This document shows positions 1,929 to 26,498 of a stretch of 50,581 nt of DNA, piece after piece (position 1 is the first letter of the stretch; each line of letters starts with the position of its first letter). Source of the stretch: an uncultured Oxalicibacterium sp. (GTDB lineage: Bacteria > Pseudomonadota > Gammaproteobacteria > Burkholderiales > Burkholderiaceae_D); the NCBI RefSeq assembly GCF_913776015.1, contig NZ_CAJYMD010000054.1, positions 1 to 50,581 of the forward strand, written 5' to 3'. Below the pieces are notes generated by a model, which saw only the letters and a program-made list of their open reading frames with translations, ran no database searches and had not been told where the DNA came from. The position numbers were made by a program, and so were the translations under genes.

Positions 1929-2942
1929 TTACTTCTTCAACGCATCGTTCAGCAGCGAGGCATCGATCCCTTTCGCAAAATCGACGGGACCATCGATCAG
2001 CTTGTTTTCCTTGAGAAACGAATGAATGGTTGGGCCGACAGCGACCAGCGACTGCGCTTGCGCCGCATCCATCGCATTCTTGTTGTCGTTGGCTGTGAAG
2101 AAACGCGTGCCTGGCAGGAAGACCTTGTACTCGGCAGCCGACATGCCGACGACCTTGGACATGATCTTGATCGCCTCATCCGGATTGCTGCGAATGAAAG
2201 CTTCGGTTTCGAACCATGCGCCGATCATGCCAACCAGATCGGCACGCTTGGTCTTGTCGAGCAGCGCTTTTTCGTGCGCGACCAGCAGATCGGGCACAAG
2301 GCCTGGCATTTCCTTGGAGGTGAATAATGCGCGGCCCTTGCCGCTGGTTTCGATCTTGGATACCCATGGATTCCACACCACGGCAGCATCGACACGACCT
2401 GTCATGAACGCGGCGGCCGCGTCGCCAGCCGACAGATTCTGAATCTTCACGTCAGACATCTTCATCTTGTTCTTGGCCAGTGCAGTCGCCAGGACGAAAT
2501 GCGAAATGCTGTATTGCTCAAGCGCGACCGTCTTGCCCTTCAAATCGGCGATCGACTTGATCTTGGGGCTGACCATCAAGGCATCGTTGCCAGCAGAGTT
2601 GTCGTTGACCAGAACCGTTTTGAGCTTGACGCCCTTGGCCAGCGGGGTCATGGTGTCCGACCAGGTTTGCGAGTTTGCATCGAGCTGACCGGCGGACAAG
2701 GCAGAAATCGAATCCGTGTAATTGGCGAACCAGACCAGCTTGACCTTGGCGTTATGTTTCTTGAAGAAGCCTTTTTGTTCGGCCACATACCAGGCAACCC
2801 AGCCCGGCCAATCGGATACGCCAACCTTGACTTCGGCATGCGCCGGCGCCAGTGCGCCAAGGCCCAGCGACAGGCAGATCAGCGAAACGGAAAATTTGCG
2901 AAGGAAAGAAGATGACAGACGGGAAAATACGGATGTCAGCAT
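1929..2942 (-). CDS. Periplasmic substrate-binding protein, NMT1/SsuA-like, guanidine operon
   Basis: A 337-residue periplasmic binding protein. The N-terminus has a basic stretch, a hydrophobic core (SVSLICLSLGLGALAP) and a signal peptidase I site after AHA. The mature part begins EVKVGVSDWPGWV and follows the SsuA/NMT1 fold seen in sulfonate, nitrate and thiamine-precursor binding proteins. The frame stays open into the leader, but the start at 2942 is chosen because it gives a complete signal peptide, has GGGAG nine bases upstream and leaves the riboswitch as an untranslated leader. It is the first gene of the operon under the riboswitch at 3003-3105. Guanidine or a related nitrogen compound is the likely ligand by context; the sequence alone does not show it. 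Confidence 0.92.
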   Translation of the reverse strand: MLTSVFSRLSSSFLRKFSVSLICLSLGLGALAPAHAEVKVGVSDWPGWVAWYVAEQKGFFKKHNAKVKLVWFANYTDSISALSAGQLDANSQTWSDTMTPLAKGVKLKTVLVNDNSAGNDALMVSPKIKSIADLKGKTVALEQYSISHFVLATALAKNKMKMSDVKIQNLSAGDAAAAFMTGRVDAAVVWNPWVSKIETSGKGRALFTSKEMPGLVPDLLVAHEKALLDKTKRADLVGMIGAWFETEAFIRSNPDEAIKIMSKVVGMSAAEYKVFLPGTRFFTANDNKNAMDAAQAQSLVAVGPTIHSFLKENKLIDGPVDFAKGIDASLLNDALKK

Positions 2943-3002
2943 GAAAGCGCTCCCAGAGGGTGGATAAAATGAGAGGCGAGCGATCACAAAACCTGTTGTG
3001 AT

Positions 3003-3105
3003 GGCCTCCCGGGTTTTTATCCCTCCGTGTAGTCGCCCCAAGGGGTGCGACCGGATGCTCTCGGACCAGCATCGCTTGCGCGACCGGAACCCTAGCTTCC
3101 ATGCT
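3003..3105 (-). promoter_or_regulatory. Guanidine-I riboswitch (ykkC leader)
   Basis: On the minus strand the leader contains, in order, CTAGGGTTCCG, GGTCCGAGAG and ACACGGAGGGATAAAAACCC followed by GGGAGG, the highly conserved blocks of the ykkC class I guanidine aptamer. The aptamer ends about 60 bases before the start codon of the binding-protein gene. Guanidine-I riboswitches turn genes on when guanidinium binds, and urea carboxylase-associated operons are one of their known target classes. I do not see an obvious intrinsic terminator between aptamer and start codon, so control may act at translation or through a less regular hairpin. Confidence 0.96.
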
Positions 3106-3142
3106 CAAGAAGCGGTCACCCGCCTCTCGTTATGCTTTTACA

Positions 3143-3158
3143 AGCAATAGTGATGCCA
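3143..3158 (-). promoter_or_regulatory. Sigma-54 (-24/-12) promoter for the guanidine operon
   Basis: The minus strand reads TGGCATCACTATTGCT, which fits the sigma-54 consensus TGGCA-N6-TTGCW with the GG and GC elements exactly 12 bases apart. The predicted start of transcription is near 3132, just upstream of the riboswitch. Sigma-54 promoters commonly drive nitrogen-scavenging genes with NtrC. Confidence 0.72.
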
Positions 3159-3197
3159 GGCCATTTAGCCCAGCCTAGGACGATTCAGCCAGCCTTT

Positions 3198-3214
3198 TGC
3201 GCAAAACAGGTGCA
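3198..3214. promoter_or_regulatory. Candidate NtrC site 1
   Basis: TGCGCAAAACAGGTGCA matches 11 of the 14 fixed positions of the NtrC consensus TGCACCA-N3-TGGTGCA and includes an intact GGTGCA half. It lies about 50 bases upstream of the sigma-54 promoter, a usual enhancer position. It also overlaps a perfect palindrome TTTTGCGCAAAA at 3195-3206. Confidence 0.5.
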
Positions 3215-3239
3215 TCCACGAGAACTAAGCCTATGAACA

Positions 3240-3256
3240 GGCACAAACTTGACGCA
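3240..3256. promoter_or_regulatory. Candidate NtrC site 2 (weaker)
   Basis: GGCACAAACTTGACGCA matches 10 of 14 fixed positions of the NtrC consensus. Its centre is 42 bases (about four helical turns) from the centre of the stronger site at 3198-3214, a spacing that would allow cooperative dimers on one DNA face. Confidence 0.35.
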
Positions 3257-3308
3257 AAAGCGGCCCTCAGATGGCTGAACACGATCACCCCGCCTTATAC
3301 GTTTTCCG

Positions 3309-3322
3309 CATATTTAAATATG
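3309..3322. promoter_or_regulatory. Perfect 14-base palindrome upstream of sbp
   Basis: CATATTTAAATATG is a perfect inverted repeat ending 11 bases before the -35 element of the sbp promoter. It could be a regulator site, for example for a CysB-type activator, but the CysB motif is too loose to assign it. Confidence 0.3.
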
Positions 3323-3333
3323 AAAGATATCGT

Positions 3334-3361
3334 TTGAGCGCATAAGCACGTTTGTTATAGT
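3334..3361 (+). promoter_or_regulatory. Sigma-70 promoter of the sulfate transport operon
   Basis: TTGAGC at 3334-3339 and TATAGT at 3356-3361 are separated by 16 bases. The -10 ends about 70 bases upstream of the sbp start codon, which has the ribosome site GGAGAT at 3422-3427. Confidence 0.5.
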
Positions 3362-3432
3362 TCGCCTTCATCGCAAAAGATTGCGTCAGGCAACGAAATT
3401 TGCCGTACTACATTCATTGATGGAGATTTCAC

Positions 3433-4443
3433 ATGTTCAAGAAAGCTGTCTTGTTGTCGGCCATCGCCGCCACATTGTTCGCCGGCGCTGCGCAAGCACA
3501 GGAAAAGCCGCTGCTCAACGCGTCCTATGACGTCGCCCGCGAGCTGTTCGCCACGATCAATCCGAAATTCCAGGAAAAATGGAAAAAGGAAACCGGCCAG
3601 GATCTGAAGATCGATCAATCGTTTGCAGGTACGTCGCGTCAGGCACAGGACATCATCCAGGGTAAAAAGGTCGACACCGTCACCTTCAACCAGGTCACCG
3701 ACATCGACATCCTGGCCAAGCGCGGTCTGGTGCGCAAGGATTGGCAAAAGGCTTTCCCGAACAATGCCTCGCCTTACTACAGCACGATCGCTTTCCTGGT
3801 GCGCAAGGGCAATCCAAAGAACATCAAGACCTGGGACGATCTGGTACGTGATGACGTGAAAGTCGTCTTCCCGAATCCGAAGACCTCTGGCAATGCGCGC
3901 TACAGCTATCTGGGCGCATGGCTTTACGCCAATGAGAAATTCAAGGGCGACGAAGCCAAAACCAAGGAATTCGTCGGCAAGCTGCTGCGCAATGTCGTCA
4001 ACTTCCCAACGGGCGGTCGTGGTGCAACCGTGGCCTTTGCTCAGAACAACCAGGGCGACGCGCTGTTGACCTTCGAATCGGAAGTCATCAACATTGCGAA
4101 GAGTGATGAGTTCAAGGCGGGCGGTTATGAAATCGTCGTGCCCCCGGTTTCCGTGCTGGCAGAATTTCCGGTTGCCGTGGTCGACAAGGTTGTCGATGAA
4201 AAAGGCACACGCAAACTGGCAACCGATTACCTGAACTATCAGTACTCGCGTGAAATCCAGTTGCTGCTGACGACCTTCAACTACCGCGTCCATCACCCTG
4301 ACGTTGCCAAGGTCGTGGCCGATCGTTACGCGAAGGTGCGCCTGATCAACCCGAACACGGTGCTCGGTAGCTGGGATACGATCCAGGACAAGCACTTCGG
4401 TAGCGGCGGCGTGCTCGATCAGCTGCTGGCCCAGCGTCGTTGA
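3433..4443 (+). CDS. sbp: Sulfate ABC transporter substrate-binding protein
   Basis: A 336-residue periplasmic protein with a signal peptide cut after AQA (about residue 22). The mature protein has the sulfate-binding family features LLNASYDVARELF, SFAGTSRQAQDI and the block FPNPKTSGNARYSYL, typical of Sbp/CysP. It delivers sulfate or thiosulfate to the CysT/CysW permease encoded just downstream. The start at 3433 has a Shine-Dalgarno GGAGAT. The following 160 bases hold three hairpins, the last one terminator-like, which would keep this protein in excess over the membrane subunits. Sbp versus CysP cannot be fully separated by eye, but the sequence is closer to Sbp. Confidence 0.95.
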   Translation: MFKKAVLLSAIAATLFAGAAQAQEKPLLNASYDVARELFATINPKFQEKWKKETGQDLKIDQSFAGTSRQAQDIIQGKKVDTVTFNQVTDIDILAKRGLVRKDWQKAFPNNASPYYSTIAFLVRKGNPKNIKTWDDLVRDDVKVVFPNPKTSGNARYSYLGAWLYANEKFKGDEAKTKEFVGKLLRNVVNFPTGGRGATVAFAQNNQGDALLTFESEVINIAKSDEFKAGGYEIVVPPVSVLAEFPVAVVDKVVDEKGTRKLATDYLNYQYSREIQLLLTTFNYRVHHPDVAKVVADRYAKVRLINPNTVLGSWDTIQDKHFGSGGVLDQLLAQRR

Positions 4444-24628: not shown

Positions 24629-24720
24629 TCACAATTGGTGAAGCACCGATTCAGCAATATGGACACCCGACAGACAATCTTCCCTGTAAAAAATACAGCT
24701 TGTTTTCAGAGGAGAAACCC

Positions 24721-25833
24721 ATGTCGAACGGATTGAATGTTTGTGGCAATGTCGTCGGCCTGCCGATGCTGGATGCGCAAACTCGACCGTCTCTGCACGA
24801 GAGACCTCTGCCGGACATGGACAATGTGCTGCAACGCTGCGGCAAACTGTATGGGGCGTCAGAACCCATGCTGCAATTGTTCCGCATGATCGGCAAGGTC
24901 GCACCAACCAATGCCAACGTTCTCATCGTCGGCGAAAGCGGTACTGGCAAGGAGTTGGTGGCCAACGTCATCCATCAGATGGGACGTAACAATGACAAAC
25001 CGTTTGTCGCCCTCAACTGCGGCGCGGTTTCCCCGCAACTGATCGAAGCCGAATTGTTCGGCCATGAACGCGGCAGCTTTACGGGCGCCATCCGCATGCA
25101 AAAGGGCTGCTTCGAACGCGCCGACGGCGGCACGCTGTTTCTCGATGAAGTCACGGAAATGTCGCTGGACATGCAGGTCAAGCTGCTGCGCGTACTCGAA
25201 ACCAATCGCTTCTATCGGATTGGTGCCGATGAAGAAACCGAAGTACGCGTGCGCGTGGTCGCCGCCACCAACCGCGACCCTGCCGAAGCAGTCGCAGCCG
25301 GCTTGTTGCGCAGCGACCTCTACTACCGTCTGGCTGTCTTCCCCATCTGCATGCCGGCCCTGCGCGAGCGCGGCAACGATATCTCGCTGCTGGCCAATCT
25401 CTTTCTCGAACAGCTCAACGACGAGGAAGATGGCAAAAAGGTTTTCTCGCGTGCTTCACTGCGTCTGATGCAAAGCTATGCCTGGCCTGGCAATGTGCGC
25501 GAACTCAAGAACATCGTGCACCGTGCCTTTATCCTGGCCGATCGCGAGCTGGACATCGCCGCTGCACTGGGCCCGATGAAGGCCGTACCGGCCGTCAGCG
25601 AATCCTCCAGCGAGTCGGTGACCGTACCGCTGGGCTGCAAACTCGCCGAAGCCGAACAGCAACTGATTTGCGCCACACTAGACCACTGTGGCGGCAATAA
25701 AACCATGACTGCAGAGGTATTGGGCGTGAGTTTGAAAACCCTTTACAATCGATTGAACGAATATCAATCGAAGTTGTTTCTGCAAGATGCCATCGCACAT
25801 GCACGGCCATACGGCGTACAGGCGCGTAACTGA
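24721..25833 (+). CDS. Sigma-54-dependent transcriptional activator without sensory domain
   Basis: A 370-residue enhancer-binding protein. After about 40 residues with no recognisable domain comes the AAA+ domain: Walker A GESGTGKE (71-78), the sigma-54 contact loop GSFTGA (118-123), Walker B GGTLFLDEV and the arginine-finger region LLRSDLYYRLAVF. The C-terminal Fis-type helix-turn-helix is TMTAEVLGVSLKTLYNRLNEY. No receiver, PAS, GAF or ligand-binding domain is present, so activity must be set by expression level or by a partner protein, as with PspF or HrpR/S. Ribosome site AGAGGAGAAACCC precedes ATG 24721. The next gene, 32 bases on, is a response regulator. Confidence 0.93.
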   Translation: MSNGLNVCGNVVGLPMLDAQTRPSLHERPLPDMDNVLQRCGKLYGASEPMLQLFRMIGKVAPTNANVLIVGESGTGKELVANVIHQMGRNNDKPFVALNCGAVSPQLIEAELFGHERGSFTGAIRMQKGCFERADGGTLFLDEVTEMSLDMQVKLLRVLETNRFYRIGADEETEVRVRVVAATNRDPAEAVAAGLLRSDLYYRLAVFPICMPALRERGNDISLLANLFLEQLNDEEDGKKVFSRASLRLMQSYAWPGNVRELKNIVHRAFILADRELDIAAALGPMKAVPAVSESSSESVTVPLGCKLAEAEQQLICATLDHCGGNKTMTAEVLGVSLKTLYNRLNEYQSKLFLQDAIAHARPYGVQARN

Positions 25834-25865: not shown

Positions 25866-26498
25866 ATGATCAAAATTCTGGTAGTCGATGACCACGCAGT
25901 AGTCCGGGCCGGTGTCCAGCACTTCATCTCGCAAGTGCCGGACATGAAAATCGAAGGCGAAGCAGGCACTGCGCAGGAAGCCATCCGCATGATCCGCTCG
26001 CAGGAATACGACATCGTCCTGCTCGACATCAACATGCCCGACAAGAGCGGTGTGGAAGTGCTCAAGCAGATCAAGCGGGAAAAACCCAATCTGCCGGTGC
26101 TGATTCTGAGCATGCATCCGGAAAGCCGCTATGCCGTGCAGATTCTGCGCAGCGGCGCCAGCGGTTACGTCCAGAAGGAAGCACTGGCCGATGAACTGGT
26201 CAATGCGATCCAGACTATTTTGCGCGGCCACAAGTACATCAGCCACGCCGTCGCCGAATTGCTGACGACCGAACTGGATGCCAATACCGAAAAGCCATTG
26301 CACGAAACGCTGTCCAAACGTGAATACGAAATCTTCTACAAGCTGTGCCAAGGGCATGGCGTCACCAAGATTGCCGAAGATCTTTGCCTGAGCGTCAAGA
26401 CGGTCAGTACCTACCGCGCCCGCGTATTGCAGAAGATGAATATGGAAAACAATGCGGGCATCATCTATTACGCCATCAAGCAAAATCTGATCGACTGA
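25866..26498 (+). CDS. LuxR-family (NarL/FixJ type) response regulator
   Basis: A 210-residue two-domain regulator. The receiver domain has the acidic pair VVDDH (8-9), phosphoacceptor Asp54 in VLLDINMP and the conserved Lys in SGYVQKEA. The C-terminal LuxR helix-turn-helix is HETLSKREYEIFYKLCQG through SVKTVSTYRARVLQKM. It is similar in build to GacA/UvrY. It sits between the sigma-54 activator and a stand-alone receiver protein and faces a histidine kinase with a HisKA_3 domain, the kinase type that pairs with NarL/FixJ regulators. The 18-base repeat at 24611 is a candidate target. Confidence 0.93.
   Translation: MIKILVVDDHAVVRAGVQHFISQVPDMKIEGEAGTAQEAIRMIRSQEYDIVLLDINMPDKSGVEVLKQIKREKPNLPVLILSMHPESRYAVQILRSGASGYVQKEALADELVNAIQTILRGHKYISHAVAELLTTELDANTEKPLHETLSKREYEIFYKLCQGHGVTKIAEDLCLSVKTVSTYRARVLQKMNMENNAGIIYYAIKQNLID

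Follow-up and report, generated by a model that had tools for sequence, protein, structure and literature searches.

The control region described here very probably acts as two switches in series, i.e., as an AND gate that would turn on the operon behind it only when nitrogen is limiting and guanidine is present. This is our best reading of a minus-strand promoter region within the window (the whole stretch of 50,581 nucleotides that was analysed). Its basis is sequence: the elements themselves, their conservation, the gene content, and the covarying pairings of a strand at the transcript's 5' end (A) with a strand ahead of the riboswitch aptamer (A') and with a strand past it (C). That the first input depends on NtrC is supported by data of others from a related genus. 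New here is that the sigma-54 transcript, as predicted, can pair through about its first 16 nt with the strand just past the aptamer. An AND gate had already been proposed in an earlier note on this DNA; apart from its distal NtrC-like site, the proposal is now supported by conservation, by the enrichment of NtrC sites, by the pattern in one family of genomes (f15), by ntrC data from B. cenocepacia and by a pairing signal at +1.

Promoters of the glnA type are run by NtrC and sigma-54 under nitrogen limitation. For the present case, we propose that under nitrogen limitation phosphorylated NtrC would bind the upstream palindromes and activate sigma-54 polymerase at the -24/-12 element, giving an RNA that starts at about position 3132. 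If guanidine is absent, A would pair with A' and the 3' part of the aptamer with C, such that the leader is OFF. If guanidine is present, the aptamer would keep its 3'-end strand (B), and C would be freed for the 5' strand A of the transcript (ON). The ON state, which may act on termination or on translation, would then allow expression of the guanidine ABC importer, followed by the downstream guanidine carboxylase pathway, which is annotated as urea carboxylase.

In the window, the -24/-12 element TGGCATCACTATTGCT has the form TGGCAT-N5-TTGCT at 3158-3143 (minus strand), which confirms the correctly spaced -24/-12 sequence claimed before; the spacing is GG-N10-GC, in a TGGCAY plus TTGC context. 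Counting 12 nt past the C of the -12 GC places the predicted transcription start (+1) at about 3132 (3131-3133, minus strand). Upstream, two NtrC-like 17-mer palindromes are found with starts 42 bp apart, i.e., a proximal one at 3198-3214 (TGCACCTGTTTTGCGCA) and a distal one at 3240-3256 (TGCGTCAAGTTTGTGCC), both on the minus strand. These elements do precede a ykkC aptamer, as had been stated: a Guanidine-I riboswitch aptamer (ykkC subtype 1, RF00442) covers 3106-3004 (minus strand) with 84.5 bits (gathering score 63, E 9.9e-14). The aptamer would presumably bind guanidine as the effector here.

The strands of the proposed switch are all encoded on the minus strand. Strand A (3116-3128), at the 5' end of the transcript, is able to pair with C or with A' (3106-3115), the latter being its partner in the predicted ligand-free 5' hairpin. 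Strand B (3004-3010) is the 3' end of the aptamer and can take C as its partner, which gives the hairpin predicted for OFF. Strand C (2971-2983) provides the 13-pair main stretch with A and is complementary to B, too. The whole predicted A:C duplex of the window comprises 16 pairs with -29.3 kcal/mol. In the predicted lowest-energy fold, A is paired with A' just ahead of the aptamer and the 3' part of the aptamer with C, and UUUUAUCC (2962-2969, minus strand) is the partner of the aptamer's GGAUAAAA. The start codon of the first operon gene follows downstream of the aptamer at 2942 (minus strand). On the other side of the promoter region lies a divergent solute-binding-protein gene (3433-4443, plus strand; SBP_bac_11).

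We studied whether the -24/-12 element is a chance match. The pattern TGGCAY-N5-TTGCW has 18 sites in the 3.16 Mb genome compared to 8 for a reversed-pattern control, and 2 of the 18 precede the genome's 2 guanidine-I riboswitches. For the comparison with relatives, guanidine-I loci were collected from an order sample (60 relatives plus 399 genomes). With the window counted in, they number 89, and 88 have at least 190 nt upstream. Given a score threshold of at least 12.6, which was set with 13 loci already known, and a distance of 20-130 nt from the aptamer, an element is found in 72/88 loci, where shuffles yield an expectation of about 1.7. The 16 loci without it are 14 of permease/carboxylase/exporter type as well as L012 and L078; L012 has a -24/-12 element at -215. 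According to Pfam, the 14 precede amino-acid permease (10), biotin carboxylase (1), SMR (1) and EamA (2) genes. The groups were initially drawn up with the help of ORF translations shown alongside the scores, i.e., after first results; when these 14 loci are set apart, the element is present in 72/74 (shuffles 1.5; reverse strand 0/74) and in 0/14 of the set-apart group.

Similar results are observed for a phylum sample (398 genomes, 51 further loci), with the element at 32/34 same-class and 0/17 other-class loci, the latter probably being Alphaproteobacteria. A combined-pattern scan of named genomes returned at least 120 stretches; the 80 listed include the genera Pseudomonas, Paraburkholderia, Caballeronia, Cupriavidus, Herbaspirillum, Raoultella, Enterobacter, Pantoea, Methylophilus and Thiobacillus. 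For Herbaspirillum seropedicae SmR1, PMC7011215 gives two ykkC leaders. The elements are thus conserved in relatives, a point on which the earlier note had made its claim depend, and the respective counts (72/88 in the order, 32/34 in the same class) lead us to reject a chance match. The genome of the window also encodes rpoN. When 2900-3440 was scanned with a simple sigma-70 consensus, the plus strand gave 2 sites and the minus strand none.

Some further loci were noted in passing. L026 (before an amino-acid permease) and L055 (before a biotin carboxylase) are divergent guanidine-I riboswitches without sigma-54 elements. The riboswitch of L078 stands before a TonB-receptor plug protein, and that of L085 before a TIM-barrel gene (AP_endonuc_2), with L086 similar by eye.

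Upstream sites were scored by their match to the 12 defined positions of TGCACC-N5-GGTGCA, which is the NtrC consensus given in PMC8743547. Against this consensus (TGCACCAnnnTGGTGCA), which usually occurs in pairs, the window has one good site (10/12, proximal) and one weak site (8/12, distal). The former is the only position scoring at least 10 in the 50.6 kb window. A score of at least 8 is reached by 233 positions, such that the distal site is no better than chance. Of the two 17-mers claimed before, the proximal one is a good match, and the distal one is unconvincing when taken alone.

Across loci, the NtrC signal is clear. When no motif is supplied, GCAC-N7-GTGC emerges as the most frequent inverted 4-mer dyad ahead of the -24 element (24/72 loci; next 9). 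The best NtrC score is at least 10 in 21/72 order loci, compared to 0.4 in mononucleotide shuffles, and in 40/122 matches of the named set. Two NtrC-like sites of at least 9 are found at 31/104 promoters (0.15 expected). Their spacing peaks at 31-32 bp (26/83 pairs, counting second sites of at least 8), and 7/83 pairs are 41-44 bp apart. Over the 104 promoters, 85/117 centres of sites of at least 9 lie 81-140 bp before +1. Among promoterless loci, a best score of at least 10 occurs in 1 of the 14 set-apart and 0 of the 17 other-class loci.

The nearest kin of the window locus, i.e., the same-genus locus L007 and L002 of the same genome, have no NtrC-like site of at least 9. In the whole genome, the strict palindrome KGCACY-N5-RGTGCM occurs at 2 places, neither of them at the window promoter. 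The genome encodes ntrC; in total, 6 of its proteins match the central part of the NtrC model, one of them within the window. The latter (24700-25833) is an AAA+ activator of the NtrC family, which aligns to the NtrC model from past the receiver domain onwards, and it adjoins a response regulator (25866-26498) that looks LuxR-type by eye. At another locus (L103), two divergent genes of nitrate-assimilation type (by eye) each have a sigma-54 element and share one NtrC-like site.

We also related the presence of NtrC to that of the promoter. The family f15 accounts for 11 of the 16 promoterless loci of the order sample, and all of its 11 loci are without promoter, including L055 directly ahead of a biotin carboxylase gene. 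Loss of rpoN is ruled out as the cause, since rpoN is found in 10/10 sampled f15 genomes. NtrC over the family cut-off was found in 0/10 of these genomes, also with a looser limit (best 425.5 vs. 558.6 bits); they do encode NtrC-like regulators of full length, which score 385-425 bits and so stay under the cut-off of 558.6. All 10/10 tested genomes from outside f15 have NtrC over the cut-off. The coincidence of no NtrC over the cut-off and no promoter stems from one family and may reflect a single event. The exporter-type genomes G018 and G239 have NtrC, such that the gene type and not the regulator would explain the missing promoter there. In G159 (78% complete), the locus L017 has the element, yet no NtrC over the cut-off is found.

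The operon behind the leader begins with three minus-strand genes for an ABC transporter, namely the substrate-binding protein (NMT1/THI5-like; 1929-2942), the permease (1058-1918) and the ATPase (213-1061). The second guanidine-I riboswitch of the genome (L002) is located on contig C40, with TGGCAT-N5-TTGCT 67 nt ahead of its aptamer. The end of this contig runs from a UAAP1 fragment through UAAP2 and urea carboxylase (1838.9 bits against a cut-off of 1303.85) to a TorF-type porin, after which comes the riboswitch. The two riboswitches of G001, a complete genome from the same genus, enclose permease, ATPase, UAAP1, UAAP2, carboxylase and porin, in this order. Because of this gene order, the ABC genes of the window and the genes of C40 are probably one operon that is split across two contigs. 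With the contigs joined in this way, the ABC transporter, UAAP1/UAAP2 and a urea-carboxylase-type enzyme follow each other in the order of a guanidine carboxylase operon. Plasmid records from Caballeronia and Pantoea that match the transporter of L033 show binding protein, permease, ATPase, UAAP1, UAAP2 and urea carboxylase. A tblastn search of viral contigs for the binding protein gave no relative.

Two observations concern G001 itself. Between its first riboswitch and the permease (L119 2164-2500), no full reading frame for the binding protein is seen, unlike in the window. Its second riboswitch cluster is followed (L119 14539-15979) by a protein of the creatininase family, which is over cut-off, and by a biuret amidohydrolase-like hydrolase, which is below cut-off, hinting at a broader use of guanidino compounds.

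Next, we evaluated the pairing of A with C. A single consensus alignment of 69 leaders gave an RNAalifold energy of 0, with the downstream strands misaligned. We therefore compared the pairing with the own partner to that with permuted partners. Strand A reaches -23.3 kcal/mol with its own C compared to -19.0 kcal/mol with the C of other loci (sd 0.40, n=71). For a finer picture, a 12-nt window was slid along the leaders, again comparing own and permuted partner. For 102 distinct leaders, z ranges from -2.2 to 1.4 at starts -44 to -8, drops to -4.4 at -4 and reaches -12.5 at +1. For 110 named loci, of which 21 have their first 20 nt in common with the 102-leader set, z is -0.5 to 2.8 at starts -36 to -8, -5.1 at -4 and -12.0 at +1. 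Perfect Watson-Crick runs of at least 7 are found in 47/102 leaders (11.1 expected). With 60-nt windows, such a signal is absent from the 14 set-apart loci (z +1.7) and borderline in the 17 out-of-class loci (z -1.8). Since the signal starts at +1, sequence evolution appears to treat the sigma-54 +1 as the first base of the RNA. The predicted +1 at about 3132 is thus supported by the complementarity that, in relatives, starts at this very position.

The same strands enter competing pairings. In unconstrained predicted folds of 104 leaders, A:A' is formed in 81, B is paired downstream in 95 and A:C is formed in 27. Covariation is also seen between A and A' (z -6.5, n=86). Within C, the best-pairing stretch for A and that for B share at least 4 nt in 90/104 leaders, which makes A:C and B:C mutually exclusive. 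This suggests a switch of four strands, with A:A' and B:C in the OFF state and the aptamer plus A:C in the ON state. The assignment of ON is the more conjectural part, since forcing the aptamer's P3 in the folding, itself an incomplete constraint, raised A:C only to 34/104 leaders. Concerning the output, U-tracts after C (at least 6 T in 8) occur in 22/72 order leaders (11.8 expected) and in 6/32 others (2.6 expected). Given this modest enrichment, intrinsic termination may be the output in some leaders only.

How do other explanations fare? That the -24/-12 element is a coincidence or relic, with the operon transcribed by sigma-70 and the riboswitch as its sole control, we regard as highly improbable. 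A single consensus match could well arise by chance, and the element is indeed absent from the loci of one family and from those outside the class. Such an origin is at odds with the conservation in both samples, the sigma-70 scan offers no minus-strand site, and the pairing signal starts at the +1 of sigma-54 and not elsewhere. Improbable, if less so, is a genuine sigma-54 promoter activated by a different enhancer-binding protein, in which case the first input would not be nitrogen status. The six genome proteins with an NtrC-like central part, one of them in the window, would provide candidates; the sites of the window and of L002 are weaker than those of many relatives, and the incomplete G159 combines an element with no NtrC over the cut-off. 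Against this stand the NtrC palindrome as the most enriched upstream dyad, often paired 31-32 bp apart, the absence of the promoter from f15, which has no NtrC over the cut-off, and the NtrC dependence reported for B. cenocepacia in the part of PMC5491218 considered. The nitrogen-plus-guanidine gate accommodates these observations best.

A third alternative leaves the promoter as it is and concerns the RNA: A:C could be a passive clamp of the 5' end, with no switching, which would stabilise the mRNA or do no more than close the aptamer. In favour of this are the location of A at the very 5' end, the fact that A:C encloses the aptamer and does not become the main fold with P3 forced, and the modest enrichment of U-tracts. 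The covariation of A with A' as well, and the overlap within C that renders its two pairings exclusive, fit a switch better, and we consider a mere clamp rather unlikely. On the side of the switch, a stricter version of the gate can be formulated, i.e., the sigma-54 start sets the first bases of the RNA and just these bases are the working strand of the switch. We put this forward tentatively, as somewhat short of an even chance. If true, a guanidine-responsive leader would be confined to transcripts that start at that +1. That is, the nitrogen input would define which RNA can sense guanidine at all.

Guanidine riboswitches are widespread, and there is debate on whether guanidine is a toxin that the cell expels or a food. 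In the sampled same-class loci, the answer can be read from the wiring of the DNA, since operons of ABC importer and carboxylase mostly stand behind a nitrogen-starvation promoter and the 3 exporter/EamA-type loci do not. The same wiring suggests that those 'urea carboxylase' operons that are under NtrC control are guanidine operons. Guanidine uptake and nitrogen-source genes appear to be on only with nitrogen shortage plus guanidine, a design that recurs in many related bacteria. It would represent a natural two-signal gate whose RNA part starts at the first transcribed base.

In the sections of PMC12316311 considered, sigma-54 control is predicted for 102 COG3665 genes, 59% of which are called urea carboxylase; the word 'guanidine' does not occur in its main text. 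According to PMC5491218, RNA-seq under nitrogen limitation of B. cenocepacia H111 mutated in ntrC gave no reads for I35_7283 and I35_7285, and I35_7286 (urea carboxylase) is down (-6.0 in the table). I35_7283 is named there as a urea-carboxylase-related ABC periplasmic protein, and I35_7283-7286, all down, are classed as urea genes by the authors. The product names suggest that I35_7283-7286 are an operon of the same type as that studied here. Burkholderia is not among the named genera given above, nor among the 30 listed of 229 plasmid records. Within the excerpts of PMC12508155 used, the proteins of the V. boliviensis guanidine carboxylase operon are strongly up on guanidine compared to ammonium. 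Among the listed matches from the open-access PMC literature, no paper joins a guanidine riboswitch to sigma-54 or NtrC, and neither 'sigma' nor 'NtrC' appears in a review of 2025 (PMC12186494). As far as the sections considered reach, the systems of PMC12316311 and PMC5491218 resemble ours in having urea-carboxylase-type genes under sigma-54 or NtrC.

Compared to glnA-type promoters of NtrC and sigma-54, the region shares the -24/-12 element and 17-bp palindromes that lie mostly 80-140 bp before +1, with a spacing of 31-32 bp in many relatives. It differs in that a metabolite riboswitch follows directly, such that nitrogen limitation alone should not suffice. As in other Guanidine-I riboswitches (RF00442), the aptamer is above the gathering score and carboxylase and ABC transporter genes lie downstream. 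In these, however, a P0 helix is absent according to the part of PMC6031431 considered, whereas here the first bases of the transcript are predicted to pair beyond the 3' side of the aptamer. A P0 helix is described in the same part for the PRPP riboswitch (ykkC subtype 2b), where the strands flanking the aptamer form a helix that is part of the expression platform, as is predicted here. The PRPP riboswitch has another ligand and other genes; in our leaders, moreover, A' separates the 5' strand from the aptamer, and the 5' strand is located at the transcript start. Membership in the PRPP class is rejected, as Rfam matches Guanidine-I alone and the gene content is of guanidine type; the leader may work in a similar way but belongs to another class. 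The individual parts are thus already known, and a switch strand locked to the transcription start site is what the present analysis adds.
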